Below are positions 6,195 to 31,571 of a DNA stretch of 36,098 bases, piece by piece. A program made the position numbers and the translations under genes. The DNA is taken from positions 1 to 36,098 of the forward strand of contig QHZE01000195.1 of assembly GCA_003225335.1 (NCBI GenBank). The letters run 5' to 3'. The notes beneath the pieces are model-generated. The model ran no database searches, was not told the origin of the DNA, and saw nothing but the letters and a program-made list of their open reading frames with translations. Every line of letters begins with the position of its first letter. The first letter of the stretch is position 1. Source of the stretch: Acidobacteriota bacterium (GTDB lineage Bacteria > Acidobacteriota > UBA6911).

Positions 6195-6197
6195 GAG

Positions 6198-7238: not shown

Positions 7239-7245
7239 GCCTGTC

Positions 7246-7434: not shown

Positions 7435-7482
7435 GGACGGGTTTTTTGTTACCTCTGATCGTGCGTGGTATATGATTATCCG

Positions 7483-8697: not shown

Positions 8698-8758
8698 ACT
8701 TTAATCGGATACCGGTTGATGTTTTCCGGGCAGGGATCTAGAGTGGTAATCGGCTAAT

Positions 8759-9604: not shown

Positions 9605-9644
9605 CTCTGATCGCCCCTGACGATCGAGCTGTCTTGGCCGATTT

Positions 9645-9717
9645 CCTTTGCGTACTTAGCGGCTTCGCGGTAAAGACTGACCCGGAATTCACCGCAAAGA
9701 CGCGAAGAACGCAAAGA
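9645..9717. repeat. Inverted repeat, TTTGCGTACTTAGCGGC / ACGCGAAGAACGCAAAG subfamily
   Basis: The left arm 9645-9673 and right arm 9689-9717 pair imperfectly. The element shares its distinctive left arm CCTTTGCGTACTTAGCG with the copy at 29341-29434, defining a subfamily of the ACGCGAAG elements. Confidence 0.8.
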
Positions 9718-9783
9718 ACGAGGGTTACCCTTGGGCTCTTTTATTGATTCGCTCGCTGGGCTGTTTATGGTAAAAGTTTGTTT

Positions 9784-10482
9784 ATGAACCTCCCCAATTC
9801 TCTCACCATTGCCCGCATTTTTCTTGTTCCTTTCGTCGTGGTTATACTGTTGACGACACAGATTCGCCACTGGGAATTCTGGGGCGTAACGGTTTTCTTG
9901 GGCGCTGCGGTTACGGACCTTCTGGACGGCTATCTGGCGCGCCGCCGAAAGCAGGTTACCACGTTAGGCCGGCTTCTGGACCCGATTGCCGACAAGCTGT
10001 TAATTTCTTCCGCTCTTGTATCTCTCGTGCAGCTCGGGATCGTTCCTGCCTGGATGGTGGCGATCATTATCGGGCGCGAATTTGCTGTGAGCGGGCTGCG
10101 CAACATTGCCGCGACCGAAGGATTCACGATCGAGGCTTCCCGCCTTGGCAAAGGGAAAATGGCTCTTCAGGTCGCTGCCGTCGCAGGTCTGATTCTCGGC
10201 CGGGTACGCGGGGGTTGGGTCTTGCAAACAGCCAACATTCTCCTGTGGGCCGTGGTGTTCTTCGCCCTGGTCTCGATGGTGCAATACTTCAGCGAGTTCT
10301 GGTCGAAGATTGACAGCAGCATAAAGTACCGTGAGCGCCGCCGCCTGCGAATCCGAGAGCGTCGTCAGATGATTCTGGCTGAATTGCGGGAGTTGCGGCG
10401 TTTGCACAGGCTGGAGCGACTGAAACGCAAAGCGGCGGACTCCGGCACGCCGTCGGTCGGGTCTGTCCAGCGCCCCGGGTAA
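9784..10482 (+). CDS. pgsA: CDP-diacylglycerol-glycerol-3-phosphate 3-phosphatidyltransferase
   Basis: Makes phosphatidylglycerophosphate from CDP-diacylglycerol and glycerol-3-phosphate at the inner membrane. The CDP-alcohol phosphotransferase signature D-x2-DG-x2-AR-x8-G-x3-D-x3-D is complete (D45, D48, G49, A52-R53, G62, D66, D70). Four to six hydrophobic segments fit the fold. After the usual end near residue 185 there is a highly basic, Arg-rich tail of about 45 residues (YRERRRLRIRERRQ and onward), which is unusual and may bind membrane or nucleic acid. I use ATG 9784, where family similarity begins; TTG 9778 adds two residues. The acceptor is inferred from the similarity of the N-terminus LPNSLTIARI to PgsA. 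Confidence 0.92.
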   Translation: MNLPNSLTIARIFLVPFVVVILLTTQIRHWEFWGVTVFLGAAVTDLLDGYLARRRKQVTTLGRLLDPIADKLLISSALVSLVQLGIVPAWMVAIIIGREFAVSGLRNIAATEGFTIEASRLGKGKMALQVAAVAGLILGRVRGGWVLQTANILLWAVVFFALVSMVQYFSEFWSKIDSSIKYRERRRLRIRERRQMILAELRELRRLHRLERLKRKAADSGTPSVGSVQRPG

Positions 10483-10512: not shown

Positions 10513-11097
10513 ATGACTCTCGAAGCACCGCTCCTTGACGATTCAACTAAGCAGGAGCTTCTGACGCTGGCCCGCTTCACCCTGGAGACGTATCTCTCAA
10601 CACGTCAAAGGCCAGACTACGCAACCGGGCGCCCTGAGCTGCAATCGCGCGCCGGGGCTTTCGTCACGCTGCGCCGAGGCGAGGAACTGCGCGGTTGTAT
10701 CGGCCATGTTGCCCCCGACACTCTGCTGTACCACACCATTCAGAACTGTGCGATCAGCGCCGCCGTGGAGGACACCCGTTTTGCACCCGTGACCTATCCG
10801 GAGTTGCCGCAGTTGAGGATCGAGATTTCAGTCCTTTCCCCGCTGGAACGGGTCCAGGATCTATCCGGCATTACAGTCGGTCAGTACGGGCTGGTTGTTT
10901 CACGCGGGCACCGTCGCGGCCTACTGCTTCCCCAAGTGGCGACCGAAAACGGGTGGGACCGGGATACCTTCCTCGCGTACACGTGCAGGAAAGCCGGCCT
11001 CCTGCCAGACGCATGGCGAGATCCTCAGACCATTATAGAGGCTTTCAGAGCTCAGGTTTTTTCAGAAGAGAAGGCTCGAACGCAGGCAGACACTTAG
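10513..11097 (+). CDS. AMMECR1 domain protein (AmmeMemoRadiSam system protein A type)
   Basis: A conserved family found in all domains of life. In many prokaryotes it is encoded with a MEMO1-like protein and a radical SAM enzyme, and the biochemical role is unknown. The most conserved motif LRGCIGH is present (residues about 59-65), as are AVEDTRFAPV, the EISVLSPLE block and a C-terminal W-R-D-P segment. At 194 residues it is of usual size. No MEMO or radical SAM partner lies within the window, so it appears solitary here. The stop TAG (11095-11097) overlaps the stop of the convergent next gene. Confidence 0.93.
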   Translation: MTLEAPLLDDSTKQELLTLARFTLETYLSTRQRPDYATGRPELQSRAGAFVTLRRGEELRGCIGHVAPDTLLYHTIQNCAISAAVEDTRFAPVTYPELPQLRIEISVLSPLERVQDLSGITVGQYGLVVSRGHRRGLLLPQVATENGWDRDTFLAYTCRKAGLLPDAWRDPQTIIEAFRAQVFSEEKARTQADT

Positions 11098-12059
11098 CGT
11101 CGGACGACGATGTCGCCGATGTGGATCTCCGACCGGCTATTGATGATTTTGGCCGCGGACGTAGTTTCGCCCACCTCAAGCACGACCAGATCGCCAAGCA
11201 CTCGATGGGGAATCTGACGTTCCGACAGTTTTTGAATAAGCTCTCCGCTGTATCTGCCGGACATGGTCGGTTGGTAATCTGTCGAGCTCTGGACGGCCCC
11301 GGTCCGAGCTCCCCCGATGCTCATTCCTTCAACACTACTGCGAACATGGGCCGTATTGACAATGAGGTCCTTCGCGTCGAAAGGTGGCTGCAAACGGTAT
11401 ATTGTAAAACGATCGCCTGGCTTCACCCCCTCGCGCGCGCCCACAGGTAGAAAGCAGACGGTCCCCTCTGCCATTTCCCGCGCGTCATCTTTTGCCAGAA
11501 CGATGGAGGTCGCCAACCCCCCCTCGGGATAGGGTGTCATGCGGGTCGATTTGTCTCCCGTAAATTTGACCAGGGCTTTGCTTGCCAGAGGGAGGAGCAG
11601 GTCGCCTTTGAACATGAGGTTGCAGCCCAAGACCACGCTTCCCGTCGCCCCACCTGGACGGAGCTCTTCGATGCGCACGGTGCCCAGTTCCTTGTAATAG
11701 TGGCCTATAAGCTGCTGTGTGAGCCGGTCTCGTATCTTTGCTTCGGGACGAACTACCCTGAACACATCGCCGACCTTGGCGTTCTTCAAGCCCGGGCCGT
11801 TCAGGTACACCATGGAGTTTTCCATGACGAACGTGGCCAGCCCTTCCTCCTCGACTCCGGAGACGTAGAGGTCCATGGGGAGCATAGACGCCTGAATGAA
11901 ACCCAGGCATTTCATCTCGTCGGGCATCCCCATCGTCCCTTTCAGCTCCTGCTGCTTGGTGAGGGGAACATCTCCGATCTTCTGAGCGTACACAGCGCCA
12001 TGGGTAAGGCTGAACAGCAACAACGAAGCAAACGGGGAAAGCAGCTTTGCGTGGTTCAT
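11094..12059 (-). CDS. Exported protein of unknown function with a FlgT-like C-terminal motif
   Basis: I do not recognise a named family. From ATG 12059 the product is 321 residues and opens with a good Sec signal peptide (MNHAKLLSPF...GAVYAQ). Earlier in-frame starts (ATG 12080, TTG 12083) only lengthen the leader. The body has repeated small beta-type modules around the phrases KVGDVFRVVRP, GTVRIEELRPG and VKPGDRFTIYR. It ends with LVVLEVGETTSAAKIINSR followed by IHIGDIVVRR. That closing pattern (V-x-E-V-G-x-x-x-S-x-A-x-I and GD-x-V) resembles C-terminal modules of envelope proteins such as FlgT; this is a weak analogy. It is divergent from the HlyD-type adaptor gene and overlaps AMMECR1 tail to tail. 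Confidence 0.8.
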   Translation of the reverse strand: MNHAKLLSPFASLLLFSLTHGAVYAQKIGDVPLTKQQELKGTMGMPDEMKCLGFIQASMLPMDLYVSGVEEEGLATFVMENSMVYLNGPGLKNAKVGDVFRVVRPEAKIRDRLTQQLIGHYYKELGTVRIEELRPGGATGSVVLGCNLMFKGDLLLPLASKALVKFTGDKSTRMTPYPEGGLATSIVLAKDDAREMAEGTVCFLPVGAREGVKPGDRFTIYRLQPPFDAKDLIVNTAHVRSSVEGMSIGGARTGAVQSSTDYQPTMSGRYSGELIQKLSERQIPHRVLGDLVVLEVGETTSAAKIINSRSEIHIGDIVVRR

Positions 12060-12139
12060 AGAGTTTAAATCGGTCAGCATCAATCTAAGCTTTAGTTTTT
12101 TTGACGTCCTTCTTGCTGCGAAGAATTATCTCCGTTTCT

Positions 12140-12197
12140 CCTCTTGCTTGCAAGTCAAACAAGCAAGAGGCAGCAGGCAGTGGGCAGCAGGCAGCAG
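12140..12197. repeat. 11-bp-arm hairpin followed by GGCAGCAGGCAG direct repeats
   Basis: CCTCTTGCTTG (12140-12150) and CAAGCAAGAGG (12160-12170) form perfect arms around nine bases. Directly after come tandem GGCAGCAGGCAGTGG-type units to 12197. It lies in the 261-base divergent gap between the exported unknown and the HlyD-type gene. No clear promoter pair could be picked out. Confidence 0.75.
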
Positions 12198-12320
12198 CTT
12201 CATTCCGCCTTCTGCCTTCTCTTCCGGTCCGGGACGTGTGCCTGCGATTGGTGATTGCTGGATCCAAACCTAACCATGAGACCTTGATGTTGGGGTGCCA
12301 GCCCGATAATATCAGGGATC

Positions 12321-13685
12321 ATGACGGACAGGCTGAGCGAGGATTTGAAGTCTTTAAGGATTGATAGAAGCAAAAGGACAGTCGAGACAGGCCGGAAAAG
12401 GTGGGTGCTCGCCGCCCTCCTCGTTCTCCTCATCGTTCTGGTTGCGGGCGCCGTCGCCTTCTTTCCCGAACGAGCCGGACTTTCCAGTCTCGGCGCCAAG
12501 CCCAGGGAAGTGGAGGTGGCAACGGTGGTCCGCCAATCCGGTGGATCTGATCAGGTGGTCCTGACTGCGTCAGGATACATAGTTCCCCGGCGCCGGCTGG
12601 ACCTGGCTCCAAAGGTCGGCGGTCGCGTGGCGGAAATCTATTTCGAAAAAGGAGATTCAGTCCGCAAAGGGCAGGTTCTGGTCCGGCTGGAAGATCAAGA
12701 TGTTCAGGCTCAGCTGGCGCAGGCGCGCGCGAACCGCGAGGGTGCGGAAGCCAGGCTGAGTGAGCTTCTTGCCGGCTCCCGGCCGCAGGAAGTCGAACGA
12801 GCGCGAGCAGCGCTCGATCAGGCTGAGGCCAACCTTCGCACAACAGAGATCAATCTGAATCGAGTCAAGCAGCTCAATCGCAGTGGGGTATTTTCCAGGC
12901 AGGCCCTGGACGAAGCGCAGAACAACTATGATTCAGCTGCTGCCCAACTGAAGTCGGCTCGGGAAAACTACGATCTCGTCCGCATCGGGCCTCGGAGGGA
13001 GCAGATTGACCTTGCTCGGGCTCAGTTGCGAGAGGCCGAGGCGGCCGTGCACCTGTGGCAAACGCAGCTCGAGAACATGGTGGTTCGCGCTCCCATTGAC
13101 GGCACCATTCTCGATCGGCTCGTGGAGAAGGGCGAAATGGTCACCACCATGTTCCTGGGCGGAGGGCGTGGCGCGAGACCTGGACTAGGCGGCATGGCGA
13201 ATCTGAAGGAACTGGAAGTAGAGTTAGACATAAACGAGGCAGATATTCCTCGCGTTCGCCTGGGCCAGGAGTGCACCGTCTCACCCGATTCCTATCCGGA
13301 CCGCAAATACAAAGGAAAGGTTCGCGAGATAGCGCCCGAAGCGAACCGACAGAAGGCGACGATACAGGTCAAAGTCTCCATCCTGGATCCCGACCAGTAT
13401 CTGCGTCCTGAAACCAACGCAAAGGTGAACTTCCTGGAGTCCGCCCGAGAGCTTTCCGCGGAAAGCAGGATCCTAGTCCCCAAAAATGCAGTAGTCACTA
13501 CCCCGGCGGGACCATCGGTCTTTGTATTCAAAGACGGCAAGGCAGCCTGCCGGCCGGTGAAGGTCGGCAGAGAGCTCTGGGGACAAGCGGAGGTGGTCTC
13601 CGGTTTGTCGGGAGGAGAGCGGATCATCGTTAAAGGCTTGGAAGGCATCGCCGAGGGCGAAAGAGTCACGCTTAAGCAGCCCTAG
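12321..13685 (+). CDS. HlyD/MacA-type membrane fusion (periplasmic adaptor) protein
   Basis: A periplasmic adaptor of a tripartite exporter that links an inner-membrane pump to an outer-membrane channel. Residues about 26-48 form one membrane anchor (WVLAALLVLLIVLVAGAVAFF). Then come the first half of a lipoyl/barrel-sandwich domain (VGGRVAEIYFEKGDSVRKGQVL), a long alpha-helical hairpin (about 130-245, rich in Ala, Gln and Glu), the second lipoyl half (VVRAPIDGTILDRLVEKGEMV), and a beta-barrel plus membrane-proximal domain to residue 454. An ABC ATPase gene follows 171 bases downstream on the same strand, as in MacAB-like operons, but the permease is absent. The substrate is unknown. Confidence 0.93.
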   Translation: MTDRLSEDLKSLRIDRSKRTVETGRKRWVLAALLVLLIVLVAGAVAFFPERAGLSSLGAKPREVEVATVVRQSGGSDQVVLTASGYIVPRRRLDLAPKVGGRVAEIYFEKGDSVRKGQVLVRLEDQDVQAQLAQARANREGAEARLSELLAGSRPQEVERARAALDQAEANLRTTEINLNRVKQLNRSGVFSRQALDEAQNNYDSAAAQLKSARENYDLVRIGPRREQIDLARAQLREAEAAVHLWQTQLENMVVRAPIDGTILDRLVEKGEMVTTMFLGGGRGARPGLGGMANLKELEVELDINEADIPRVRLGQECTVSPDSYPDRKYKGKVREIAPEANRQKATIQVKVSILDPDQYLRPETNAKVNFLESARELSAESRILVPKNAVVTTPAGPSVFVFKDGKAACRPVKVGRELWGQAEVVSGLSGGERIIVKGLEGIAEGERVTLKQP

Positions 13686-13710
13686 TGGCCGTTCTCACGG
13701 GCGCCTTATA

Positions 13711-13796
13711 GGACACGGATTTACACGGATCTCACGAATCTTTACGGATGGATCGAGTCCGTGTTAATCCGTCGAATCCGTGAGAATCCGTGTCCC
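13711..13796. repeat. Inverted repeat, ACACGGATTTACACGGAT family
   Basis: The left arm (13711-13749) and right arm (13757-13796) are composed of CACGGAT and ATCCGTG units and pair over most of their length. A second member lies at 35944-36030. Confidence 0.85.
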
Positions 13797-13856
13797 ATCG
13801 CCTTGGTGGTTTTCGTGTCTGCGTGTTGACTCCCAGTCCATGAGAGAGGAAGCGGA

Positions 13857-14555
13857 ATGGCAGAAACGCTGGTACGCATTTCGAATTTGAGCAAGGTTTA
13901 CAAGCGTGACAATCAACAGGTGGTGGCTCTGCAAGACTGCTCCCTCGACATCCCGCGGAGAGAATTCCTTGCTCTCATGGGCCCTTCGGGATCCGGAAAG
14001 ACGACGCTGCTGAACCTCATCGCCGGGATCGATCGTCCGACCTCGGGAGAGCTGGAGGTCGACGGGGTGAACATCGAAACCATGGCCGACCGGCAGCTCG
14101 CCAACTGGCGCAACCAGCACATTGGGTTCGTGTTTCAGTCGTTCAACCTGATTCCCGTTTTGACGGCGTTTGAAAACGTGGAGCTTCCCCTGCTCTTGAC
14201 CAAACTGAGCAAACGGGAGCGCCGGGAGCACGTGGAGACAGCGCTGCGCTTGGTCGGGCTTCAGGATCGGATGAGTCACTACCCACGCCAGCTCTCCGGC
14301 GGCCAGGAACAGAGAGTGGCCATTGCGCGTGCCATCGTCACGGATCCGACACTTCTCCTGGCTGACGAACCCACCGGCGACCTCGATGCGCATTCCGCGG
14401 AGGAAATCATGAACCTCCTCTCGCGGCTGAATAAGGAGTTTGGAAAATCTATCGTCATGGTCACGCACGATCCCCGGGCGGCGCACCACGCGACCAGGAT
14501 CCGGCACCTCGATAAGGGTGTCCTTTTACGGGAAGGGAGCCTCCCGGTGGCCTAA
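13857..14555 (+). CDS. ABC transporter ATP-binding protein, LolD/MacB type
   Basis: A cytoplasmic ATPase that powers a membrane exporter. Walker A GPSGSGKT is at residues 42-49, the Q-loop is in [10 protein letters not shown], the signature LSGGQ at 146-150 (followed by EQRVAIARA), Walker B LLLADEP at about 166-172, and the switch His in MVTHDP. The 232-residue size and motif wording place it with LolD/FtsE/MacB-like ATPases, which couple to FtsX-fold permeases. GAGGAAG precedes ATG 13857. It follows the adaptor gene, but the next gene is a protease, not a permease. The ADOP permease at 22568-24899 is 8 kb away on the other strand and is a poor partner candidate. Confidence 0.94.
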
Positions 14556-14591
14556 AACCAACCTGGCCCAAGCGCGGAGAAGGATTTTTAG

Positions 14592-14682
14592 GCAAATGAA
14601 AAATGAAAAATGAAAAATGACAAATTGCACGCGAGGAAACCATTTGTCATTTCTCATTGATCATTTGTCATTGGTCATTTGC
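14592..14682. repeat. Inverted repeat, AAATGAAAAATGAC family
   Basis: The left arm (14592-14627) has tandem AAATGAA/AAATGAC units. The right arm (14641-14682) mixes CATTTGTCATTTCTCATT-like units. The outermost GCAAATGA and TCATTTGC are exact complements. Confidence 0.85.
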
Positions 14683-14756
14683 GAAGACACTCTCAGCGTA
14701 CTCTGCGTCTCTGTCCCATAGAGCATCAAGGAGTTCATCATCAGTGGTGAAAACCG

Positions 14757-15470
14757 ATGAAGCACGCCTTTGACTTCTGTCCGAACAGAACGGGCAAAGC
14801 GGTCCACATTGCCATCGTTGACAGCGGCGTGCATGCGGAACATCCTCACGTCGCCGGGGTCGCCGGCGGGATCTTCATCCGTGCCGATGGAGCTCTTTCG
14901 GATGACTATGTGGATCGGCTCGGACACGGGACGGCAGTTGCAGCGGCCATCCGCGAGAAAGCGCCCGCAGCCGGCCTGTATGCAGTCAAAATCTTTTCGG
15001 ACTCTCTTGCCGTCCCCATAGAGGCTCTGATCCGCGCGATCGATTGGGCGGCGGAGGCGGGAGCCCGGCTGATCAACCTCAGTCTGGGGACGTCCAGAGC
15101 CAAACATGAGGCAGTGTTGCTGGAGGCTGTCGAACGCGCCCGGGAGCGAAAGGCCATTCTTGTTGCCGCCTGCGAGGACTCAGGCGTGCGCTGGCTGCCC
15201 GGCAGCCTGCCAGGCGTCCTGCCTGTTCGTCTCGATTGGTCTTTGTCTCGCCACGAATACCACGTCGAGCAGGATGAGAGAGTCGTTTTCCGCGCGTCGG
15301 GATATCCGCGTCCCATCCCCGGCGTTCCAGCGGAGCGCAACCTCAGAGGCATCAGCTTCGCGGTGGCGAACATGACGGGCTTCTGTGCAAGAGCGCTCGA
15401 AGCGTATCCCGAGGCAGATCTCGATGAACTGATCGACCTCCTGGCCGAGCGGAAACCGACTGAGGGGTGA
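14757..15470 (+). CDS. Compact subtilisin-like serine protease (S8) without leader or prodomain
   Basis: A 237-residue subtilase core. The catalytic triad is visible: Asp22 in AIVDSGVH, His57 in GHGTAVAA and Ser200 in RGISFAVANMTG. There is no signal peptide, prodomain or C-terminal extension, so it is probably cytoplasmic. The usual oxyanion-hole motif AAGN is replaced by AACED (residues 137-141), putting Glu or Asp where subtilisin has Asn155. This is reminiscent of proprotein convertase 2, which has Asp there. The core is also shorter than typical 270-residue domains. It follows the ABC ATPase after a repeat element, and a functional link is possible but unproved. ATG 14757 has GGTGA eight bases upstream. 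Confidence 0.88.
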   Translation: MKHAFDFCPNRTGKAVHIAIVDSGVHAEHPHVAGVAGGIFIRADGALSDDYVDRLGHGTAVAAAIREKAPAAGLYAVKIFSDSLAVPIEALIRAIDWAAEAGARLINLSLGTSRAKHEAVLLEAVERARERKAILVAACEDSGVRWLPGSLPGVLPVRLDWSLSRHEYHVEQDERVVFRASGYPRPIPGVPAERNLRGISFAVANMTGFCARALEAYPEADLDELIDLLAERKPTEG

Positions 15471-15482
15471 ACTGTAAAAAGT

Positions 15483-15595
15483 CCTCAGACCTCAGACTTC
15501 GACTTCAGACCTCAGACTTCGACTTCAGACCTCAGATTTTTGAGATCAAGTCTCAGGTCTGACTCCTGAGGTCTGATCCCTGAGGTCGGAGGTCT
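15483..15595. repeat. Inverted repeat, CAGACCTCAGACTTC family, copy 1
   Basis: The left arm (15483-15535) has three near-identical 19-base units built on CTTCAGACCTCAGACTTCGA. The right arm (15551-15595) has CTGAGGTCTGA units. It begins 13 bases after the protease stop. Confidence 0.85.
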
Positions 15596-15646
15596 CTGTT
15601 TTGTCGTGGCGTCCCGCCGGATAGCGGGATTAGAATCTCGCGCACC

Positions 15647-15805
15647 ATGAAGCTCCGGTTGGCGGCGGCTCTGGCTGGCTACTTGATTCTGGCCCTGGTC
15701 GGCACCTTCATACTCGAGGGGGCCCTGCGAATCGCGCTCTGGATCTTCTTTGCCGGCCTGGCTGTCAAAACGCTGATTCACTCTAAAGACCCAGACATGG
15801 AATGA
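15647..15805 (+). CDS. Small two-helix membrane protein, 52 residues, unknown function
   Basis: ATG 15647 to TGA 15803-15805. The product has two hydrophobic segments (residues about 5-23, rich in Ala, Leu, Val; about 26-44, LRIALWIFFAGLAVKTLI) separated by a short EGA turn, with basic residues at the N-terminus and a charged HSKDPDME tail. That composition is far from random translation of the surrounding repeat DNA and suggests a real gene. No good ribosome binding site is seen. It is bracketed by two copies of the CAGACCTCAG element (15483-15595 and 15809-15907), and truA follows. No family is recognised. Confidence 0.55.
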   Translation: MKLRLAAALAGYLILALVGTFILEGALRIALWIFFAGLAVKTLIHSKDPDME

Positions 15806-18054: not shown

Positions 18055-18131
18055 CGATTCTTCGAGCTTCGCGTCTTCGTGGTGGATCCTGTGCGCGGGA
18101 TCCACCACGAAGACGCGAAGACGCAAAGAAT
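18055..18131. repeat. Long perfect hairpin, CTTCGCGTCTTCGTGGTGGATCC
   Basis: Arms 18067-18089 and 18098-18120 are perfect 23-base reverse complements around an eight-base loop; outer bases extend the pairing imperfectly. It starts at the stop codon of lctP, between lctP and the oxidoreductase gene. It is a member of the ACGCGAAG family and could end or attenuate transcription from lctP. Confidence 0.9.
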
Positions 18132-19783
18132 CAGAAAGGGATGGCTCCGGGAAAGACGAAAGCGTAAAGCATGACAATCAAACCCACCAGCGAGGCCAGG
18201 ACGATGCTGTGCACGAACACCGCTTTGAAAATTGCCGCCTCCTTTCCGACCTGTTGCGTGGCAGTGCTCGAAACGACGATGGATTGGGCGTCGATCATTT
18301 TCCCCATGACGCCGCCGCAGGAGTTCGCAGCGGCCATCAGAACGGCGCTGTAGCCGAGCTGTTCGGCAGTCACCTTCTGCAGGTTCCCGAAAAGCGCGTT
18401 CGATCCCGCATCGGTGCCGGTCAGCGCAACGCCCAGCCATCCCAGAAGCGTGCCGAAGAACGGAAAGGCGGGCCCGGTCCGCGTAAGGCTGAGGCCCAGC
18501 ACCGTGTCCATGCTCGAATAGCGCGTGACGAAAGCAAGGCCAACCATGAAGCTGATGGCCAGCAGCGAGGGAACCAGCCGGGCCACGGTCTGGCCAAAAA
18601 TCCTGAGCGTCCTGTTCAGAGGCAGACCGAGCAGCAGGGCAGAAAGGACTGTCCCGAAGGAAATCGCTGTGCCGGGAAGGGCTACAAAGTTCAGGTCCGC
18701 GATCGCAGCTTCCCGCGCAGGCTGTGGAACCACAGGCGGCACCCGCAGCACCAGATTATGCAGACTGGGCATAGGCTGCTTCAGGATCGAGTAGCTCAGG
18801 GCCTTGTTGGCGTCCGGCAGCCCCGCAAGAAAGATGAAAAGGGAGCTCAAGATGAAAGGGGACCAACCTTTCATAACTGCCACAGTGGAATGCCGGCGCA
18901 GCTCGATAGCCACAGCCGACTGCCCGATCCTGCCGGTTCCCATGCCACCCTCGTTCTCAATCACCCTCGCGGGCCTCCACACCTTGAGGAAAGCGACCAT
19001 TACGAGAAGAGAGAAGATCGCCGCTACGATATCGACCAGTCCGGTCTCCTGGAAGTTCGACCAGTAGAACTGCATGCCCGCGAACGAGAGGCCGCTCACA
19101 GCAAGCGCCGGCCAGACGTCGCGCGTCTCACGCCAGCCCACCATGCTGCGCGTCAGCCACAGAGGCAGAATAGCGGATAGAGGCGGCAGGATCCTTCCTG
19201 CCATCATGTTCAGGGAATGCTCCGGCAGTCCGGTGACGCCTGCGAGCACGCGGATCGGGTTCCCCACGCCTCCCCACGCCACCGGAGCGGTGTTCGCCAG
19301 CAGGCAGAGGGTTGCGGCCTGGAACGGCGGGAATCCAAGCCCGATCAAAAAGGAACCGGCAATAGCCACGGGAGCGCCGCCGCCGCCGGTTCCTTCCAGA
19401 AACGCGCCAAAGCAAAATGCGATCAGAACCAGCTGCAGGCGCTTGTCCGAAGAAAGGCCCGCGATGGATTCCTTCATCACCTGAAACTGTCCCGTTTCCA
19501 CAGCCACGTTGTATAGGAAAATCGATGCGACAATGATCCACGCGATCCGCAGGAGGCCGAAGACGAACCCAAGCAACGAAGAGCTCAGGATCATCAACGC
19601 CGGCATCCGAAAGACGACAAGCGCCAGAAGGACCGCCACGATCATCCCGCTCAGAGCCGCAACCCAAACGCGCTTCTTCAACACAAGCAGGACGAAGAAG
19701 AGCGTCAGCACGGGCAATGCGGAGACCAGGGTCGAGAGGGGCCAGTAGCCCAGCGGATCGTAATTCTGGTACCACGAACCCAA
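18131..19783 (-). CDS. lctP: L-lactate permease family transporter (LctP/LldP)
   Basis: An inner-membrane proton-linked permease family that imports lactate and other 2-hydroxy-acids such as glycolate. The 550-residue product has about 13 hydrophobic segments. It carries family blocks FCFGAFLEGTGGGGAPVAI, LLANTAPVAWGGVGNPI, GWLGVALTGTDAGSNALFG and AAANSCGGVMGKMIDAQSI. Translation starts at TTG 19783, with GAGGAG about nine bases upstream. It sits among exported sugar-acid enzymes, so its cargo may be a carboxylate made by them; that is inference. It has an intact frame. Confidence 0.94.
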   Translation of the reverse strand: MGSWYQNYDPLGYWPLSTLVSALPVLTLFFVLLVLKKRVWVAALSGMIVAVLLALVVFRMPALMILSSSLLGFVFGLLRIAWIIVASIFLYNVAVETGQFQVMKESIAGLSSDKRLQLVLIAFCFGAFLEGTGGGGAPVAIAGSFLIGLGFPPFQAATLCLLANTAPVAWGGVGNPIRVLAGVTGLPEHSLNMMAGRILPPLSAILPLWLTRSMVGWRETRDVWPALAVSGLSFAGMQFYWSNFQETGLVDIVAAIFSLLVMVAFLKVWRPARVIENEGGMGTGRIGQSAVAIELRRHSTVAVMKGWSPFILSSLFIFLAGLPDANKALSYSILKQPMPSLHNLVLRVPPVVPQPAREAAIADLNFVALPGTAISFGTVLSALLLGLPLNRTLRIFGQTVARLVPSLLAISFMVGLAFVTRYSSMDTVLGLSLTRTGPAFPFFGTLLGWLGVALTGTDAGSNALFGNLQKVTAEQLGYSAVLMAAANSCGGVMGKMIDAQSIVVSSTATQQVGKEAAIFKAVFVHSIVLASLVGLIVMLYAFVFPGAIPF

Positions 19784-22567: not shown

Positions 22568-24899
22568 TCATTCGTACCGGAGCGCGACCATAGGATCCAC
22601 TTTCGTCGCCCGCCGCGCCGGGATGTAGTTGGCCGCGAGCGTCACTGCCAGAAGAAACGCGGATACACCGGCGAAGGTTAAACGATCCGTCGGTCGAATT
22701 CCGTAAAGCAGGCTCGACAGAACGCGAGTCAGAACAAGCGCTCCAATGACTCCCATTGCGAGTCCCAGGACTGTCGCGGCCACCCCTTCGCGGAGCACCA
22801 GTCTTATCAGATCAGCTCGTTGTGCTCCCAGGGCGAGACGCACGCCGAATTCCCGGGTACGCTGACTCACGGAATATGAGACTGCGCCGTACAAACCAAC
22901 CAGGGCGAGGAGCAGGGCCAGCGCTCCGAAGGCGCTCAGCAGGATCCCGGTCGCGCGCGCCGTGAAGAGGGGCACGGCCATATACTCCTCCAGTGTTTCG
23001 GTGTGCACCAGGGGCAAAAAAAGGCAGGTACATGAAAGCCTGGCCCTCCTCTCGCAGGCTTTGATATTTGCCGGTCTTGACTACGCCGACAATTTCGCAG
23101 CTCTGTGCCTTGCCGGAATCCAGGGACAGGCGCCGCCCGATCGGATCTTCGCCTGGCCAGAAACGGCGGGCCATGGCGTTGTTGATGATGACCACAGGCG
23201 CGGCACTGGCGTTGTCCTGCGGGCCAAACTCGCGCCCGCGCAATACGGGGATTCCCATCGTTTGAAAGTACCCGGGTCCTACCGCCGCAGTGCCAATCAG
23301 GTAGGCGCTCTCGCCGGGCGGAGGCTGATGGCCCTCGATGGTGACGCCCATAACCAGCCTGTTAAATCCCAAAGGCAGAGGTTTGGCCAGGCTCGCCGAT
23401 GTTACGCCGGGCACACCCTGGACGCGATCCAGCAATTCCCGGTAGAAGCGCTCCCCGCGGGTTTTCGAGTAGCCCAGAATCTGCAAATCGAAGGACATTC
23501 CCAGCCGGTTCTCGACCTTGAACCCCGGGTCGATGGAATGCGCGTTGAAGAGACTCTGCAGACACAGGCCCGCGCCAATGAGCAGAATCAAGCAAACCGC
23601 GATCTGGGTTGTCACGAGGGCGCTTCGCAAGCGCGATCTGCGATAGGCGCCATCGCCTCCGTCTTTCAAGCCCGTAATCACGTCGAGCCTGGAGCTGCGC
23701 AAGGCCGGCGCCAGGCCGAAGATGAATCCGGTGAGCAGCGAAACCAGCAATGTGAATCCCAGGACTCGCCAATCCAGAGAAAGATCCAGCGTGATGAAGG
23801 AAAGCAGGGCCGGTTTCAGGTTGAGGAGAAGCGGCGCTGCCCAGGCCACAAACAGCAGACCGGCCCCGCCGGCCAGGCACGCAAGCACGATGCTTTCTGT
23901 CAGGATCTGCCGGATGAGGCGGCGGCGGCTGGCGCCGATAGCGGAACGAACAGCCATTTCGCGCGAGCGCCCGGCCGTTCGAGCCAGGACGAGATTGGCC
24001 GAGTTCGCGCAGGCGATGAGCAGGACCAGACCAACAACAGCCATGAGGAGGGCCGTAAAGGGAACGACGAAAATCCGGAACTCCGGCGGAATTCCCGTCG
24101 CGGGCAGGACGGCAGCGGTCCATCCTTTGTTGCTCTTGGGGTACGCCCTCGCGAGCTGTTCCGCCAGGACGCTCAGGTCCGCCTGCGCCTGCGAACGCGT
24201 GACGCCGGGCTTCAGGCGCCCGACTGCGAAAATCCAGTAGCCCGTCCGGTTGCCGAGCCAGTCGTTACCGGGAATGATCTGGCGCAGCATCATCATCGGG
24301 ACCCAGAAGTCCGGCGCAAATCCGGTCTCGGCGCCGGTGAATCCCGCAGGCGCAACCCCGACAACAACGAAGCTGTGGCCATTCAGTGTCATCGTCCTGC
24401 CCACCACACCCGGGTCGGAGCCCAGCCGCTGCCGCCAGAACGCATCTGCAAGCACCACAACCGGATTTTTGTCGGGTGTCCGATCTTCCTCGGGGAGGAA
24501 GGCGCGTCCAAGTCTCGGCGTGACTCCCAGCACCGAAAAGAAATTCCCGGAAACGACCTGGCCGTTGATGATCTCATTCTGCCCTGGCCTGCTCCAGCTC
24601 ACACGGGTCGGGTCGCTGCTGTAGGCAAGCAGGCCTGAGAACACCTGATTGTGGTCCCGGTAATACACGTAATCGGGATAGCACTGCTGCAAGTACCCGC
24701 CGTTGGGGAGCCGGTTCCAGACGGCCATCAATCCGTCCGGCGCTTCGACACCCGCCGGCGGCCGAAGCAGCAGGGCGTTGATGAAGGTGAAAATCGTGGT
24801 GTTTGCGCCGACGCCGAGCCCCAGGGTCAGCACGGCAACGGCGGTGAAGCCCGGATTTTTCAAGAGCGTTCGAAAGGTGTAGCGAAGATCTTTGATCAT
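22568..24899 (-). pseudogene. ADOP-type ABC permease (MacB/FtsX fold), internally deleted and frameshifted
   Basis: Acidobacterial duplicated orphan permeases are about 800-residue proteins with two MacB-periplasmic/FtsX units and no ATPase gene beside them; their role is unclear. ATG 24899 opens the typical MIKDLRYTFRTLLKNPGFTAVA. Seen next are the first TM, a periplasmic MacB-core domain, an FtsX domain (LVLLIACANSANLVLAR, EMAVRSAIGASRRRL), and a second unit up to [10 protein letters not shown]. Near 23017 a T7/A7 run marks a break. The correct sequence resumes in another frame as [13 protein letters not shown] and ends with the second FtsX domain ([19 protein letters not shown]). By comparison with the family about 35-40 residues are missing at the join. 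This is a pseudogene or an assembly error. Confidence 0.87.
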
Positions 24900-24944
24900 G
24901 TCGAGTGCCCGGTGGAAAAGAGTGCAATTAGGGTGCGAGTCCAT

Positions 24945-25411: not shown

Positions 25412-27406
25412 TTATGTCCTAAGTCGCCAATCTCGGATTGTGCCGCGCGAGGTAGCCGGCTGGAAGGCTTCAAGCATTCGAATAATGCTCAGGGCGACCT
25501 CGGCTGTCTGTCCCATCTCGTGCGAGCGCACATACTCCATCGCGTCGAAGAGGACAGCGTTCGCTTCGGCGAAAGTCACCGCATCGGCAAAACCATGGGC
25601 TGCGACCCAATCCCGCTGGGCCAGCGTGTCGTTCACGTGGGTCATGATCAGGTAGGTTGCCCTTCCGATAAGCTTCAGGTTGGTGGGGCTGACGTTGGTC
25701 ATCGTGTTACCGACCACGCGCCCGACGGCGGCCATGACCCCTGTGGAATGCGCGTTCAGGATCATCTTGAGAGCGATCTGGCGGCGGAGGGTAAGCGGGT
25801 CGTCCTCCGCCTCCAGGACCGCCTTGACCAGGACGTCGCCTTCCCTGAGCCGTCGCTTCAAGCCATCCGCGGCATCGGCCAGGTTGCGCCGCGCCACGAC
25901 GAGCGCCGCCAGGTTTGCGCCGCGCTCCTGGCAGACGTTTATGAATTTGTTGAAGCTGGAGTCCGGTCGATCGAGCTCGACCAACTCCTCGTCCAGCAGG
26001 ACGAGTACGCCCAGGTCCCCCGGCCGGGGTCCCTTGCTTGCGACGTTGGATGGGGAAAACGAAAAATCGTACGAGAGTTCCTGGTCGTCCCCCGCACTGG
26101 TGAGGCTGCGCAAGGCCGCTTCCCTGAGATACGGGTCCGGTACTTGCCGCTCGAAGGCATTCCTGTAAGAAGACTCGCGCAGGCCCTTGAAAGGCCTGCC
26201 AAGGAAGTTGCGCCACGCCTCCCTGAGGTCCGCTGCTTCCGTCCAGACCTGGACCCAGCTGCGGCGTTCCGTTTCCTGCGCCCGGTCGAGCGGGTACAGC
26301 CGGAACGTGGGACTCCGCTCGGTGTTGTCGATGAAGACCGTGATGAGCGCAGCCTTGGCGAAGTATGTCGAGAAGCCTCCGCGCCGGTACGTGTCGGCCT
26401 CCAGTTCGGTGAAGCGCGCCATGTCGGGCACGCAGGCATCGACCGCGCTCTTGATGCGGTCGAAGGCGGCGATCCTTTCGACCAGCGAGACGGGCGCGCC
26501 GTAACCCAGCGCCTTCAGCTCGCCGCGCGCGAGATGCTCGCGCAGCACACGGGCGAGGGCCTCCTCCAGGATGGCCCCGACCACGAAGGTCTCGCTGGTC
26601 GTGGCCTGAAGCCGGGTCGAACCCGTGATAGCCTGCGGGCCCGTGGTGAGATTGATTTTCGTGATGGCGGGATTCTCCAGCACCGAGGAGCTGCGCTCGA
26701 AGGGGCGCAGCACGTTGTCGGGATTGTTGTAAACGAAGTAGAGGTGATTGCGGGCCTCTCCGCGAAGCGCTTCGTCGGGATCGCCGTACTGTCGAAGGGC
26801 GGCCAGAACCGTACCGATCACGGAAGAGGTCTCGCCCCCCTCCGTGACACAGATGACGACATCGCCTCTGGTCACACCATGATCTTCGAGTTGGAGCTTG
26901 CCGATCAGCTGGAGGTCCTCGAATCCTTCCAGCGAGCTGACCAGCGCGCGATCGGCTCCGGTCATCTCCCCGATCAGCCGATTCTCAATATCGGCGGGCA
27001 GGTGCGGCTGCAGCTTCTTCCATGAATCGTGCCGTCTTACCATCTTCCAGAAGGGACGCCAGAAGTTGCTCTCCATCTGCTTCGCCAGACGCCCCGTCGC
27101 GCCGCAGCCGTAAACGTAGATTTTGTGACCCGACATAGCGGCACTCGCCACGGCGCGGACCGCCTGTTCCGGCGCCTCCGGGTTCTCGACGAGCCACTTG
27201 AGCTTCTGCGAGATATCCCGGTCGACCGACAGAAGCATTCTGAGGCCCGCCTCAATGTTGGATTGGATGGCGAAGCTCAGGTTCCAGGTGTTGGGGTGGC
27301 GCTGCTCGGTGAGCAGGTTGAAGAGATGAAACTGCGTCTTGTTTCCGACGTAGTCCACCGATTGCGGCGATGGATTCAGGCCGAGCCACTGCAAGACCTC
27401 CGACAT
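25412..27406 (-). CDS. Large MurQ/GKRP-like double-SIS protein
   Basis: A 664-residue protein with SIS (sugar isomerase) folds. The N-terminal SIS domain shows VYGCGATGRLAKQMESN (residues 98-114), aligning with the GAGTSGRL...E block of MurQ, the N-acetylmuramic acid 6-phosphate etherase. GFEDLQ (Glu163) aligns with the second MurQ catalytic Glu region, and VTEGGETSSVIG (187-198) with its phosphosugar loop. A MurQ-like closing block (ILNAHSTGVMAAVGRVVGN and NLKLIGRA, about 548-583) occurs in the C-terminal half, which probably forms a second SIS domain. MurQ is about 300 residues; two SIS domains in about 620 residues is the plan of animal glucokinase regulatory protein. It is either an etherase/isomerase or a phosphosugar sensor. 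An AGGGAG site precedes ATG 27406. The frame is intact. Confidence 0.78.
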   Translation of the reverse strand: MSEVLQWLGLNPSPQSVDYVGNKTQFHLFNLLTEQRHPNTWNLSFAIQSNIEAGLRMLLSVDRDISQKLKWLVENPEAPEQAVRAVASAAMSGHKIYVYGCGATGRLAKQMESNFWRPFWKMVRRHDSWKKLQPHLPADIENRLIGEMTGADRALVSSLEGFEDLQLIGKLQLEDHGVTRGDVVICVTEGGETSSVIGTVLAALRQYGDPDEALRGEARNHLYFVYNNPDNVLRPFERSSSVLENPAITKINLTTGPQAITGSTRLQATTSETFVVGAILEEALARVLREHLARGELKALGYGAPVSLVERIAAFDRIKSAVDACVPDMARFTELEADTYRRGGFSTYFAKAALITVFIDNTERSPTFRLYPLDRAQETERRSWVQVWTEAADLREAWRNFLGRPFKGLRESSYRNAFERQVPDPYLREAALRSLTSAGDDQELSYDFSFSPSNVASKGPRPGDLGVLVLLDEELVELDRPDSSFNKFINVCQERGANLAALVVARRNLADAADGLKRRLREGDVLVKAVLEAEDDPLTLRRQIALKMILNAHSTGVMAAVGRVVGNTMTNVSPTNLKLIGRATYLIMTHVNDTLAQRDWVAAHGFADAVTFAEANAVLFDAMEYVRSHEMGQTAEVALSIIRMLEAFQPATSRGTIRDWRLRT

Positions 27407-27796: not shown

Positions 27797-29161
27797 TCAG
27801 GACCACAAGCGGTCGTTGGAACGCTCTTTGTCCCATTCTGGTGTGGGATCGAAGTACCCGGGCTCCCGAAGGTGCTGCTTGATGATTTCTTCGTCGATCT
27901 CTATGCCGAGTCCGGGCCTTTCGGGCACGGCCGCAAACCCGTCTTTCACAATCGGCTTGGGAATACCCGTGACCATATCCTCCCACCATGGGACCTCCAG
28001 CGAATGGTGCTCCAGGCAGAGGAAATTCTCCGTTGCCGCCGCGCAATGCACGTTAGCCATAAAGGACACGGGCGTACCGGCAAAGTGCATCGCCATCGGG
28101 ACTCCGCCTTCCATGGCCAGGTCTCCGATCTTCTTGGTTTCGAGAATGCCGCCCGCGCTTGCCAGATCCGGGTGGATCATGTCCACGGCTTTCGCGTTGA
28201 CGAGCTTCGCGAACTCTTCTTTCAGATAAATATCCTCACCCGTCAGAATCGGAACCTCCACGGCATCGGTGATCTTCTTGAGCAGATCCGTGTACTGCCA
28301 GGGAATCATGTCTTCCATCCAGGCCAGTTGGTGCTTCTCCATGGCCCGGGCCAGGCGGATGCAGCTGTTGACGCCTATGTGGCCGAAGTGGTCCGATGCC
28401 AGCGGGACTTCCATCCCGATGACTTCCCGAATCGCAGCGACGTAATCCGAGAGAAGCGCGATCCCTTTATCCGTGATTTCCACGCCGGTAAACGGATGCG
28501 GCACCCGGTCGCCGGCGCTGTATTCAAGCCGGAGCGGCATGCTCAGAGTGCCGGGCTTGCCTTTTAGCAGGTTGATGCCAATGTCCACCTTGAGGAACGT
28601 CAGACCTCGTTCCATCCGCGCCTTCAGGCGCTTTCCCTGCTCCGTTCCGTCGGGGCTCTCCGTTGTGTCCGCGTACAGCCGTATCCTGTCACGGAATTTT
28701 CCTCCGAGCATCTGATACACCGGGACCCCATAGGCCTTGCCGGCGAGGTCCCAGCAGGCCATTTCCACGGCGCAAACCCCGCCGGCCTGCCGGGCGTGGT
28801 GGCCAAACTGTTTGATCTTGCGGAAGATTTTGTCCACGTTGCACGGATTCTCTCCGAGGATGCGGCTCTTGAGGATCAGCGCGTAAGTCTTGCTGGCGCC
28901 GTCGCGCACCTCGCCATATCCGGAGATCCCCTGGTTGGTGTCAATGCGGATGATAGGACAGGTCATGGGAGCTTCTTTCACAACCGCGACACGCAGGTCA
29001 CTGATCTTGAGCTGCGACGGTACAGAATTCCTGTTGACGTTCTGGACCGCCGCCTCCACGCCGGGCTCGGAGAGCAGACCCGCGGCGCCTGTGCCCGCCG
29101 CCATGCTGAATGATCTGAAAAACGAGCGCCGTCCTATCAATTCCCGCACCATTGTTTTCAT
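27797..29161 (-). CDS. Tat-leader mandelate racemase/muconate lactonizing enzyme family protein
   Basis: A second enolase-superfamily enzyme that abstracts an alpha-proton of a carboxylate; subgroup members are racemases or sugar-acid dehydratases. The leader has IGRRSFFRSFSMAAGTGAAG, a twin-arginine pattern. In the barrel domain Lys191-x-Asp193 (LKVDIG) and metal ligands Asp257 (LASDHFG), Glu283 (WMEDMIP) and Glu309 (LTGEDIY) are visible, plus His359 (MHFAGTP). The N-terminal capping domain spans about 52-170. I choose ATG 29161 because GGGAGA lies six bases upstream; ATG 29167 would be one base from that site. It differs from the ManD-like paralogue at 19946 in the active-site loop. The substrate is unknown. 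Confidence 0.9.
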   Translation of the reverse strand: MKTMVRELIGRRSFFRSFSMAAGTGAAGLLSEPGVEAAVQNVNRNSVPSQLKISDLRVAVVKEAPMTCPIIRIDTNQGISGYGEVRDGASKTYALILKSRILGENPCNVDKIFRKIKQFGHHARQAGGVCAVEMACWDLAGKAYGVPVYQMLGGKFRDRIRLYADTTESPDGTEQGKRLKARMERGLTFLKVDIGINLLKGKPGTLSMPLRLEYSAGDRVPHPFTGVEITDKGIALLSDYVAAIREVIGMEVPLASDHFGHIGVNSCIRLARAMEKHQLAWMEDMIPWQYTDLLKKITDAVEVPILTGEDIYLKEEFAKLVNAKAVDMIHPDLASAGGILETKKIGDLAMEGGVPMAMHFAGTPVSFMANVHCAAATENFLCLEHHSLEVPWWEDMVTGIPKPIVKDGFAAVPERPGLGIEIDEEIIKQHLREPGYFDPTPEWDKERSNDRLWS

Positions 29162-29167
29162 CGGCAT

Positions 29168-29459: not shown

Positions 29460-31571
29460 CTATCGACGGGGGGCACGGAGGCCGGGGTAAGGGGTGCGGT
29501 TCCGGTAGACGATGTAGAAACTCAATGCGAAGACGATTCCTGCCGCCACATAAATCCACCAATCCAGGCGGCCCAAAGGGAATTCCTGAAGGCCCGCCCA
29601 CACCCCAAAAGCGTTGTTGCCGGCATGGACCACCATTCCCGGGAAAATCGAACCCGTGAGCAGCGCGATGGCCGTGAGGATCACTCCCAGGAAGCCCGTG
29701 GGAATGATCCGGAACAACGCGACGTGAAACAGCCCGAAAACAGTTCCGACGACGAGCGCGAGGGCCGCCGGTCGGAACTTGCGCCGCAGCCCGTAAAGAA
29801 GCGTCCCTCGAAAGCCGATTTCCTCACAGACGGCGGGAAGGACACTGAGGAAAAAGAACAGCTGCCACAGCGGAACGTCGCCGGGAAGGATCGAGCGGCT
29901 GAACTGTTCGAGCACTCGTTCGGACACCGGCACGAAAATATTGGCGAGCCGGAACACCCCGATTCCCACAAGGTGACCTGACGGAATCGACAGGAGCACT
30001 CCGATCCAGGCCATCGGATTCACCCCGCGCAGTGCCAGGGCGTCCCGCCAGTTCAGTCTGTATTTCCAGATCATGAGCGCCGGGGCGCCGAGGAAAATCA
30101 CGATCTCGTTGAAGAGGAGCTGCCGGCGAAAGGTGGCCAGTTGAGGTATGTTTGCGGCCACCGCAAACATGACGGCCCACAGCAGCGCATACCAGCGCAA
30201 GACGTGCTTCGAAAACAGCGACGCTCCTCCTTCCAGATCCGCCACATCCGATTCGCTCGCGGTGATCAGCCGTTCCTTGGAGAGCATCCTTGTCGACGCA
30301 CGGGCGATCCCGAAGGAAGTCAGTGCCATCACCAGAAAGGTCAACGCAATCATCGGCCAGTCGTATTTTCCCACCATAACCTCGCGGACCGCGACGCTGA
30401 CATTTGCGAGGGGCACGACCGCAATGGCCGAGCGCAAGGACACGCCGGGAAGCACGGACGCAAGCGCGAACACCAGGCAGACGAGATTCACCGGAAAGAA
30501 ATAGAACTGCGCTTCCTTGTAGGTCTTTGCGTAGGCCGAGACCATCAAGAGAACGGAAGCGACCAGAACGGCCACCGGAGTATACAGCAGCAAGAGTGTG
30601 AGGACCGCGGCGGGGGGAATCTCGATGACAAAATCTTTCGGGAGCTCTATCACCTTGAACGTAAGGTACACCAGAATGTTCGCCACTTGGATGAAGGTGA
30701 TCCCAAGAGCGACGGCGAGGATGCTCAACTGCTTGGCCGCCACGATCTCGGCACGGCGGGCTGCCGTGGTGAGAAGTGTCTCCAGCGAGCCCCGCTCCTT
30801 CTCGCCTGCAATGCTGTCCATCGCCACGACCGAGCCCCCACTGAGCATCAACATGAACAAAAAGAAAGTAAGAAAACGGCCGACAAAGGATCCGCTTACC
30901 TGTCCCGGAGTCGCCAGGCTTCTGGATTCGACCTCGACTATCTGTTTGGGCTCCGCCGGAAAGCCGCGTCCGCGCAAAATCTCTTCGCTCCGGACGCGGC
31001 GCACTCCTGCCAGCAACCGCTGGACTCTGCCGCGGCCGGCATTCGACTCATCCTGGTCCCCCTGGAAATGAATCCTGATCAGAGGCACGCCCGCGACGCG
31101 CACAGGCCGGAGCGGGTCTGGCCGTTCGCCCTCCTGCTCCTCTGCTTGCTGTTTCCGGGCCTCCTCGTGCGCCAGGGCATCCGCTTCCTCACCGCTCAGA
31201 GCCTCCAGGTAAAAGTGAATTTTCTTTGCCTTCAGGTCGCCTTCGGGGTCATCCGTTCGCACCTCTTCAAATTTGAAATCGGCGAGGTCCGATTTTCTGT
31301 CTCCGTCACCCTCCTCCGGGAGTTGAGAGGCGATCTCGCGCGCTTTCTCCACGAGCGCCCTGGCCTTTTTTGCCTCTGCTCCGGCGATGCTGTATTTGTA
31401 GGTGACTCTCCGGAGGCTGTCCGCGCGGCGTTCTTGAACGAACCTGGTTCCCAAGAGCATCAGTGGCATTATGAAAACCGGCAGGACAATCGAAACCACC
31501 ACCGTGCGCCGATCGCGCACCAGCATCTTCAATTCGTTGGCCAGAAGCAGCCGGACGATTCTCCAGTTCAT
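29460..31571 (-). CDS. ABC-2 type permease fused to a CPBP intramembrane protease domain
   Basis: A 703-residue membrane protein. The N-terminal half is an ABC-2/NatB-like permease: a first membrane segment (VVSIVLPVFIMPLMLL), a charged extracytoplasmic domain (about 50-225), then five or six segments including the hallmark IAGEKERGSLETLLTTAARR. The C-terminal third is a CPBP (Abi) domain with EEIGFR (about 583-588), GLFHVALFR (His near 616) and HAGNN (His near 649), the residues expected for a glutamic-type intramembrane protease. It is the last gene of an operon with a partner permease and an ATPase. NatAB-type pumps export Na+ or drugs; here the cargo is unknown. ATG 31571 is the first plausible start. 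Confidence 0.92.
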   Translation of the reverse strand: MNWRIVRLLLANELKMLVRDRRTVVVSIVLPVFIMPLMLLGTRFVQERRADSLRRVTYKYSIAGAEAKKARALVEKAREIASQLPEEGDGDRKSDLADFKFEEVRTDDPEGDLKAKKIHFYLEALSGEEADALAHEEARKQQAEEQEGERPDPLRPVRVAGVPLIRIHFQGDQDESNAGRGRVQRLLAGVRRVRSEEILRGRGFPAEPKQIVEVESRSLATPGQVSGSFVGRFLTFFLFMLMLSGGSVVAMDSIAGEKERGSLETLLTTAARRAEIVAAKQLSILAVALGITFIQVANILVYLTFKVIELPKDFVIEIPPAAVLTLLLLYTPVAVLVASVLLMVSAYAKTYKEAQFYFFPVNLVCLVFALASVLPGVSLRSAIAVVPLANVSVAVREVMVGKYDWPMIALTFLVMALTSFGIARASTRMLSKERLITASESDVADLEGGASLFSKHVLRWYALLWAVMFAVAANIPQLATFRRQLLFNEIVIFLGAPALMIWKYRLNWRDALALRGVNPMAWIGVLLSIPSGHLVGIGVFRLANIFVPVSERVLEQFSRSILPGDVPLWQLFFFLSVLPAVCEEIGFRGTLLYGLRRKFRPAALALVVGTVFGLFHVALFRIIPTGFLGVILTAIALLTGSIFPGMVVHAGNNAFGVWAGLQEFPLGRLDWWIYVAAGIVFALSFYIVYRNRTPYPGLRAPRR

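Follow-up and report, generated by a model that had tools for sequence, protein, structure and literature searches.

The window, a stretch of 36,098 nucleotides from an Acidobacteriota bacterium (contig QHZE01000195.1), encodes a 664-residue protein with two SIS domains and a helical lid, and the GKRP-type fold and sugar site of this protein are firm. It represents a bacterial and widespread family that is apparently uncharacterised. We propose, with a probability of roughly 35%, that its members are lactyl etherases working independently of a kinase, which would cleave D-lactate from unphosphorylated MurNAc or from reducing-end muramyl fragments.

The two-SIS gene and its genome

The whole two-SIS GKRP/MurQ-like gene spans positions 25412..27406 on the minus strand and is supported by open reading frame, profile, fold-prediction and structure-comparison evidence. 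The reading frame predicted originally is confirmed. It starts with ATG, and upstream of it the frame is open for just six more codons (to 670). The gene is single-copy in the source genome (7.5 Mb, 96.7% complete). Profile searches of this genome detected no MurQ over the cut-off, no AnmK and no PF01869 kinase over the cut-off, and NamZ is found at two places, on contigs other than that of the window.

Within the window, an enolase-superfamily dehydratase (27797-29167, minus strand) is located immediately upstream of the two-SIS gene, and its twin-arginine-like N-terminus (GRRSFFRSF) suggests an exported sugar-acid enzyme. Positions 29460-31571 on the same strand encode a fusion of an ABC permease with a CPBP intramembrane protease (NF041647, 410.7 bits vs a cut-off of 435). 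The ADOP-family permease at 22812-24944 (minus strand) covers profile positions 2-624 of 803 and continues with unrelated residues; its C-terminal region looks frameshifted or truncated. The enolase-superfamily enzyme and the ADOP permease next to the window gene form no conserved neighbourhood in related loci. An LctP-type lactate permease (18131-19783, minus strand) is encoded ~6 kb downstream of the two-SIS gene and shares no operon with it. Lactate, the cargo of this permease type, is the expected product of an etherase.

Overall structure of the two-SIS protein

The AlphaFold2 model of the window protein, built on the 76-member family alignment, contains two predicted Rossmann/SIS folds and a helical lid (pLDDT 94.2, pTM 0.94). 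SIS-1, SIS-2 and the lid are all located in one chain, as in GKRP. The SIS-1 domain (~residues 78-266; 26609..27175, minus strand) is defined by the Pfam domain GKRP_SIS_N at residues 82-199, by the predicted strands (96-100, 144-148, 183-187, 222-226 and 249-252) and by the MurQ alignment. The SIS-2 domain (~residues 306-536; 25799..26491, minus strand), in which the glycine loop is absent, is assigned from its predicted strands (346-350, 385-389, 465-470, 498-506 and 525-531) and from hhalign, and its profile found no meaningful match among PDB sequences. The C-terminal lid, corresponding to the MurQ closing block (~residues 540-656; 25439..25789, minus strand), is assigned from sequence and profile matches, including GKRP-like_C.

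Structure comparison with VIA-align identified GKRP (4bb9) as the best match of the model, with a Z score of 36.8 over 509 residues (model residues 19-663). The top five matches are all GKRP entries (Z 33.6-36.8, 478-512 residues, 18-20% identity), followed by two-SIS isomerases (Z 20-23), whereas MurQ (Z 22.2-22.6) aligns over 219-223 residues and covers one half of the model only. Foldseek concurs, giving E values of 1e-16 to 7e-14 for GKRP and of 1e-6 and weaker for MurQ. The two-SIS plan of GKRP, proposed earlier from the letters alone, is therefore borne out by the comparison with GKRP and MurQ, with two SIS domains predicted rather than one.

At the sequence level, the single window sequence matches MurQ 4s12 in the PDB (E=2e-14), and the family profile matches both MurQ (8.1e-36) and GKRP (2.4e-17). 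On the window protein, GKRP_SIS_N scores 27.4 bits (cut-off 27). This domain is matched at E<=0.01 in 76/76 family members and GKRP-like_C at the same threshold in 26/76, so the N-half and, in part, the lid are already called GKRP-like by Pfam and the fold is not categorically new. The curated MurQ models all score under their cut-offs on the window protein (99.1/168, 90.1/255 and 75.1/302 bits). In agreement with the original prediction that bacterial MurQ is half this size, the 14 canonical MurQ rows measure ~298-352 aa.

The composite sugar site

According to the GKRP report PMC4109836, fructose-phosphate is contacted by G107, T109, S110, E153, L178-S183, G256, S258 and R259 of SIS-1, by E348 and H351 of SIS-2, and by N512, K514, L515 and R518 of the lid. 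These residues were mapped onto the window protein through sequence and profile alignments, with a chain offset of 11 for 4mqu. In SIS-1, the GCGATGR loop (residues 100-106; 27089..27109, minus strand) corresponds in the family alignment to the T109/S110 region of GKRP, and G100, C101, G102, T104, G105 and R106 are each kept in 76/76 members. E163 (26918..26920, minus strand) is the counterpart of MurQ E114 and GKRP E153, as judged by the alignments and the GKRP site list of PMC4109836. The TEGGET loop (residues 188-193; 26828..26845, minus strand), a phosphate-type loop according to the family and MurQ/GKRP alignments, takes the place of ASGRT in E. coli MurQ and SVGLSA in GKRP, with E189, G190, G191, E192 and T193 each present in 76/76 members and T188 in 75/76. 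In SIS-2, hhalign and the alignments place E363, within the segment IDNTERSPTF (residues 359-368; 26303..26332, minus strand), at MurQ E83 (DASECPPTY) and GKRP E348 (DGVECIHTF); D360, E363, R364, P366 and T367 are each found in 76/76 members. The lid contributes N576-x-K578-L579-x-x-R582 (25661..25681, minus strand), matching GKRP N512, K514, L515 and R518 in the alignments and the PMC4109836 site list. E163, E363, N576, K578, L579 and R582 are each invariant in the 76 aligned members.

MurQ E83 and E114, which we take to be the catalytic Glu pair, are both invariant in the 14 canonical MurQ rows. E114 aligns with E163 in SIS-1. In the SIS-1 alignment E83 falls on F115, a position that is I/F/V/L/M in 76/76 members and Glu in none, and in SIS-2 it aligns with E363 (hhalign profile-profile E=9.4e-5, probability 58.8). 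The alignment of the 76 members thus reveals no MurQ Glu pair within a single SIS domain of the window protein. Each half retains one MurQ Glu and has lost the complementary one, so the two halves would jointly form one site. Judged from these alignments, the split Glu pair together with the lid is the composite sugar site of GKRP. Of the MurQ-like blocks described originally, one in each half, the MurQ similarity is real and the closing block does lie in the C-terminal part (~540-592), but the placement of both Glu in the N-half is not upheld.

Compared with MurQ, the whole family has TEGGET in place of ASGxT and Q267 in place of K196 (76/76). The replacement of MurQ R143 by E192 was considered as a sign that the loop excludes phosphate. 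This idea was dropped, because R143 is R, D, M or A among the MurQ rows and the GKRP loop deviates too; the changes of K196 to Q267 and A140 to E189 alone stand. The hydroxyls of T104, T188, T193 and T264, together with phosphate binding by GKRP without the canonical serine, make a phosphosugar compatible with the loop.

Family extent and phylogeny

The contig collection yielded 145 pattern matches, 110 of them encoding relatives, and 80 loci were retained. Family members are ~30-63% identical to the window protein, with one partial sequence at 72%. Group A (L014-L052), which includes this partial sequence, shows 49-57% identity and comprises, by record title, Aminicenantes/Saccharicenans, Acidobacteriota, Chlamydiae, Bacteroidota and others, and group B (L053-L093) shows 30-35% identity and comprises Verrucomicrobia, Armatimonadetes and others. 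In the relatives panel, G003 and G019 encode proteins 63% and 57% identical to the window protein.

A tree was calculated from SIS-1 and the lid (55 rows, 286 columns), including 14 MurQ sequences and human GKRP. The two-SIS family is split from the 14 MurQ rows with 100/100 support and a long branch, not inside the MurQ clade; the phylogeny with MurQ and GKRP therefore does not place it within a known isomerase family. The branch of human GKRP is very long (4.81). The free tree groups GKRP with MurQ (84/29), and a clade of GKRP with the two-SIS family is not rejected (p-AU 0.499), a value obtained with this very long branch.

Signal-like N-termini were recognised by a rule of our own (not SignalP), which combines a start codon, a hydrophobic core and a small-residue cleavage motif. 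Such N-termini are present in 24 of the 36 group-A loci (counting L004 and L050 as the single contig that they are), 11 others having none and one being truncated, and are found in 0/41 loci of group B and 0/1 of group C. The hydrophobic stretch is conserved among relatives (as with IPTILV in L019, L021, L022 and L051), and in 8/9 typed examples, L036 being the exception, the charge is positive before the core and neutral or negative after it. On the tree, the signal label requires two changes. Some relatives thus appear, from their N-terminal sequences, to be exported from the cell. By the same rule the window protein has no signal peptide, and no signal-like stretch was found upstream in any frame. 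To our knowledge, SIS proteins are cytosolic, and signal-bearing members would be unusual.

Gene neighbourhoods of related loci

The gene context points to muramic-acid use, as seen in the namZ, murQ and symporter neighbours. The muramidase gene namZ adjoins the two-SIS gene in three unrelated loci (L014, L036 and L137; Poisson p 1.5e-4 against our own rough estimate of 0.1 expected cases per 50 genomes). In L014, namZ lies on the same strand and overlaps the two-SIS gene by ~13-16 bp, and in L036 the two genes are convergent with a 10 bp gap. In L137, from the Phycisphaerales genome G354, namZ (4853-6109, plus strand) and a second two-SIS gene (6778-8547, minus strand) run towards each other, with a short 161-aa ORF between them. 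A fourth locus, L041, carries namZ ~7.3 kb from the two-SIS gene, along with NlpC/P60, MR_MLE and APH genes.

Two of these loci show further features. In L137, a PF09992 protein (phosphodiester glycosidase) with an N-terminal hydrophobic stretch is encoded at 8556-9758 (minus strand), 9 bp upstream of the two-SIS gene. In L041, the genes for the NlpC/P60 peptidase, the MR_MLE enzyme and the APH-family kinase (10988-15699) separate namZ from the two-SIS gene and its symporter, and the region looks like one for muropeptide use.

Canonical MurQ is encoded at most ~4 kb from the two-SIS gene in five loci (L056, L063, L068, L069 and L072). An SSF symporter gene lies within ~4 kb downstream in L034, L035, L039 and L041, vs 0/22 signal-group loci that have 4 kb or more of downstream sequence (Fisher p 0.0015). 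Further SSF matches occur in L091 (at 4.65 kb) and, weakly, in L075 (3.2 kb), and the surroundings of the window gene, L100 and L101 yielded none. The closest SSFs of L034, L035, L039 and L041 share 36-41% identity with the symporter encoded in the canonical L134 cluster. According to PMC5790795, the Tannerella MurNAc transporter MurT belongs to the sodium symporter superfamily. L134 itself (845-10000) is a compact candidate MurNAc-use cluster with a namZ-fusion, a LysR-type regulator, a BadF-type kinase, murQ and SSF; the LysR and kinase names were read from the sequence, and phmmer backs the kinase.

A BadF-type kinase accompanies canonical MurQ in 10/21 loci (L010, L056, L068, L069, L072, L105, L127, L131, L134 and L136), mostly with only ~2 kb of flank, and occurs in 4/80 two-SIS loci (L056, L068, L069 and L072), where it is always inside or adjoining the canonical MurQ ORF. 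Among the 80 loci, no kinase partner was found next to the two-SIS gene where canonical MurQ is lacking, and no conserved regulator or kinase partner gene was found in related two-SIS loci. In Verrucomicrobia, MurQ-kinase fusions, seen as canonical MurQ ORFs with an additional match to the BadF-type kinase, occur at a distance of a few kb from the two-SIS gene (L056 11940-13601, L068 11646-13658 and L072 9008-10822).

Muramic-acid genes are missing nearby in most two-SIS loci; the conserved neighbours are housekeeping genes in group A (Tat, SHMT, PurD) and RRF/MnmE in group B. Two candidate partners were discarded. The FAD-oxidase neighbour of group B, considered as a lactate dehydrogenase, is a true upstream gene in ~6 loci and was set aside because many of its matches are antisense overlaps with the two-SIS gene itself. 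The CoaE/AAA-like kinase and dCMP-deaminase-like genes upstream in group A are read instead as Aminicenantes synteny.

Phyletic pattern

In a panel of 297 Acidobacteriota-type genomes, the two-SIS gene was detected in 29 (E<1e-60). NamZ is present in 29/29 carriers vs 212/268 others (Fisher p 0.002), AnmK over the cut-off in 0/29 vs 95/268 (p 1e-5) and a MurQ-like match apart from the two-SIS gene in no more than 1/29 vs 122/268 (p 2e-6), p-values that overstate the evidence because the carriers cluster in ~12 families and the counts are phylogenetically non-independent. NamZ is widespread in the panel regardless (241/297 genomes), and the single possible carrier with a further MurQ-like match is, by its match count, G241. 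In the 50 genomes behind the loci, canonical MurQ (>300 bits) occurs in 0/28 of group A and 5/22 of group B, and NamZ in 39/50. PF01869 kinases over the cut-off are encoded in 23/29 carrier genomes, which leaves room for a kinase elsewhere in the genome; as evidence these counts were rejected, the family being too broad to discriminate.

Proposed function and alternative explanations

The conserved MurQ Glu pair and the gene context suggest that the two-SIS protein is a lactyl-etherase-like enzyme, a sequence-based prediction to which we give slightly less than an even chance. Action on a muramic sugar, phosphorylated or not, is an even bet, based on the neighbours in a minority of loci. The etherase with a new substrate, one of two roles suggested originally, agrees better than any other reading with the gene context and the conserved residues of the site, with the activity itself predicted. 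The protein would be a covalent MurQ pseudo-dimer, in which the sugar loop and E163, as the MurQ-type base, come from SIS-1, E363, as the MurQ-type acid, from SIS-2, and N576/K578/R582 from the lid, together forming one composite site. By elimination/hydration, this site would free a muramic-acid sugar of its 3-O-lactyl group or of a closely similar ether, and the protein would probably serve the utilisation of MurNAc from peptidoglycan. Cytosolic forms, the window protein among them, would act on sugar imported by a transporter, for example through symporter uptake, and the signal-bearing relatives would act outside the cytoplasm. The exported-looking relatives and the lack of an accompanying kinase make unphosphorylated MurNAc or a reducing-end muramyl fragment somewhat likelier than MurNAc-6-phosphate.

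One alternative is a plain MurNAc-6-phosphate etherase, a fused MurQ pseudo-dimer with one working site that would act in the cytosol after a putative kinase. It draws on the complementarity of the two-SIS gene to MurQ in the 297-genome panel, on the retention of both presumed catalytic Glu and of the phosphate-loop hydroxyls (T104, T188, T193 and T264), and on the PF01869 kinases somewhere in 23/29 carrier genomes. Nevertheless, many relatives sharing the site have signal-peptide-like N-termini, no kinase adjoins the gene where MurQ is absent, the source genome has neither a PF01869 kinase over the cut-off nor AnmK, and MurQ K196 is Q267 in 76/76 members, all of which render this function unlikely. 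Moreover, four loci contain canonical MurQ-kinase genes beside the two-SIS gene, so in some Verrucomicrobia the protein is no simple MurQ substitute. Similarly improbable is an enzyme on a different sugar, either an isomerase or an enzyme of elimination on another 3-O-substituted aldose, for which the muramic neighbours would be incidental. SIS folds do serve many phosphosugars (GlmS and NagB-II at Z 20-23), the TEGGET loop is unlike that of MurQ, the window neighbours are sugar-acid enzymes and most loci have no muramic genes; against this stand namZ adjoining in three unrelated loci, murQ nearby in five, and in four an SSF that resembles the symporter of a canonical murQ cluster.

A non-catalytic sugar sensor of the GKRP type, controlling a partner enzyme or serving as a receptor when exported, is more doubtful still. 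The GKRP fold over the full length, the ligand residues shared with GKRP and the coexistence of canonical MurQ in some genomes are in line with such a role, and GKRP keeps both Glu and yet is a regulator, so that Glu conservation alone is no proof of catalysis. However, no conserved kinase or regulator partner gene accompanies the family, the site residues are invariant with both MurQ Glu among them, and GKRP, on a very long branch, can be joined in the tree to MurQ or to the family (AU p 0.499 for GKRP with the family). The phosphosugar sensor of a sugar island that had been suggested for the window protein finds nothing in its favour beyond the GKRP likeness: no kinase partner is present without MurQ, the window neighbours are not conserved in related loci, and related proteins carry predicted export signals. 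Our preferred reading remains a lactyl-etherase-like enzyme, whose substrate may be unphosphorylated MurNAc.

Comparison with known systems

Our literature search found no bacterial family with the GKRP plan and no functional description of one, within a coverage that excludes the 2009 work on GKRP evolution, and it found no periplasmic etherase for unphosphorylated MurNAc. In PMC6572805 and PMC13041923, MurQ is described as the sole known lactyl etherase, and an enzyme for free MurNAc is sought in mycobacteria. The two-SIS family is a concrete candidate for free-MurNAc chemistry in phyla other than that of the mycobacteria. If the proposal is true, lactyl etherases would be of two kinds, MurQ and the two-SIS family, and the enzymes of the latter would share the architecture of vertebrate GKRP.

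The GlmS isomerase domain and the NagB-II deaminases also have two SIS folds per chain (Z 20-23), but they share ~10% identity with the window protein and leave the MurQ closing block and the Glu pair unmatched. MurQ (TIGR00274, PRK05441) is clearly homologous in SIS-1 and the closing block, and its two catalytic Glu positions are kept. Unlike MurQ, the window protein is twice as long, splits the Glu pair over two domains, and has E189, E192 and Q267 where MurQ has A140, R143 (variable) and K196.

Vertebrate GKRP (PDB 4bb9, 3w0l and 4ly9) contains two SIS domains and a lid in the same order as the window protein, with the SIS-1 Glu, the SIS-2 Glu and the lid N/K/L/R at matching places. The two proteins differ in that they share 19% identity, GKRP H351 and S183 correspond to P366 and E192 of the window protein, the family is bacterial with some members that look exported, and no glucokinase partner is seen near the gene. 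GKRP is the glucokinase regulator of liver and is known as a regulator, not as an etherase. A bacterial protein with the full GKRP plan and both MurQ Glu bears on a possible cell-wall-enzyme origin of the liver regulator.
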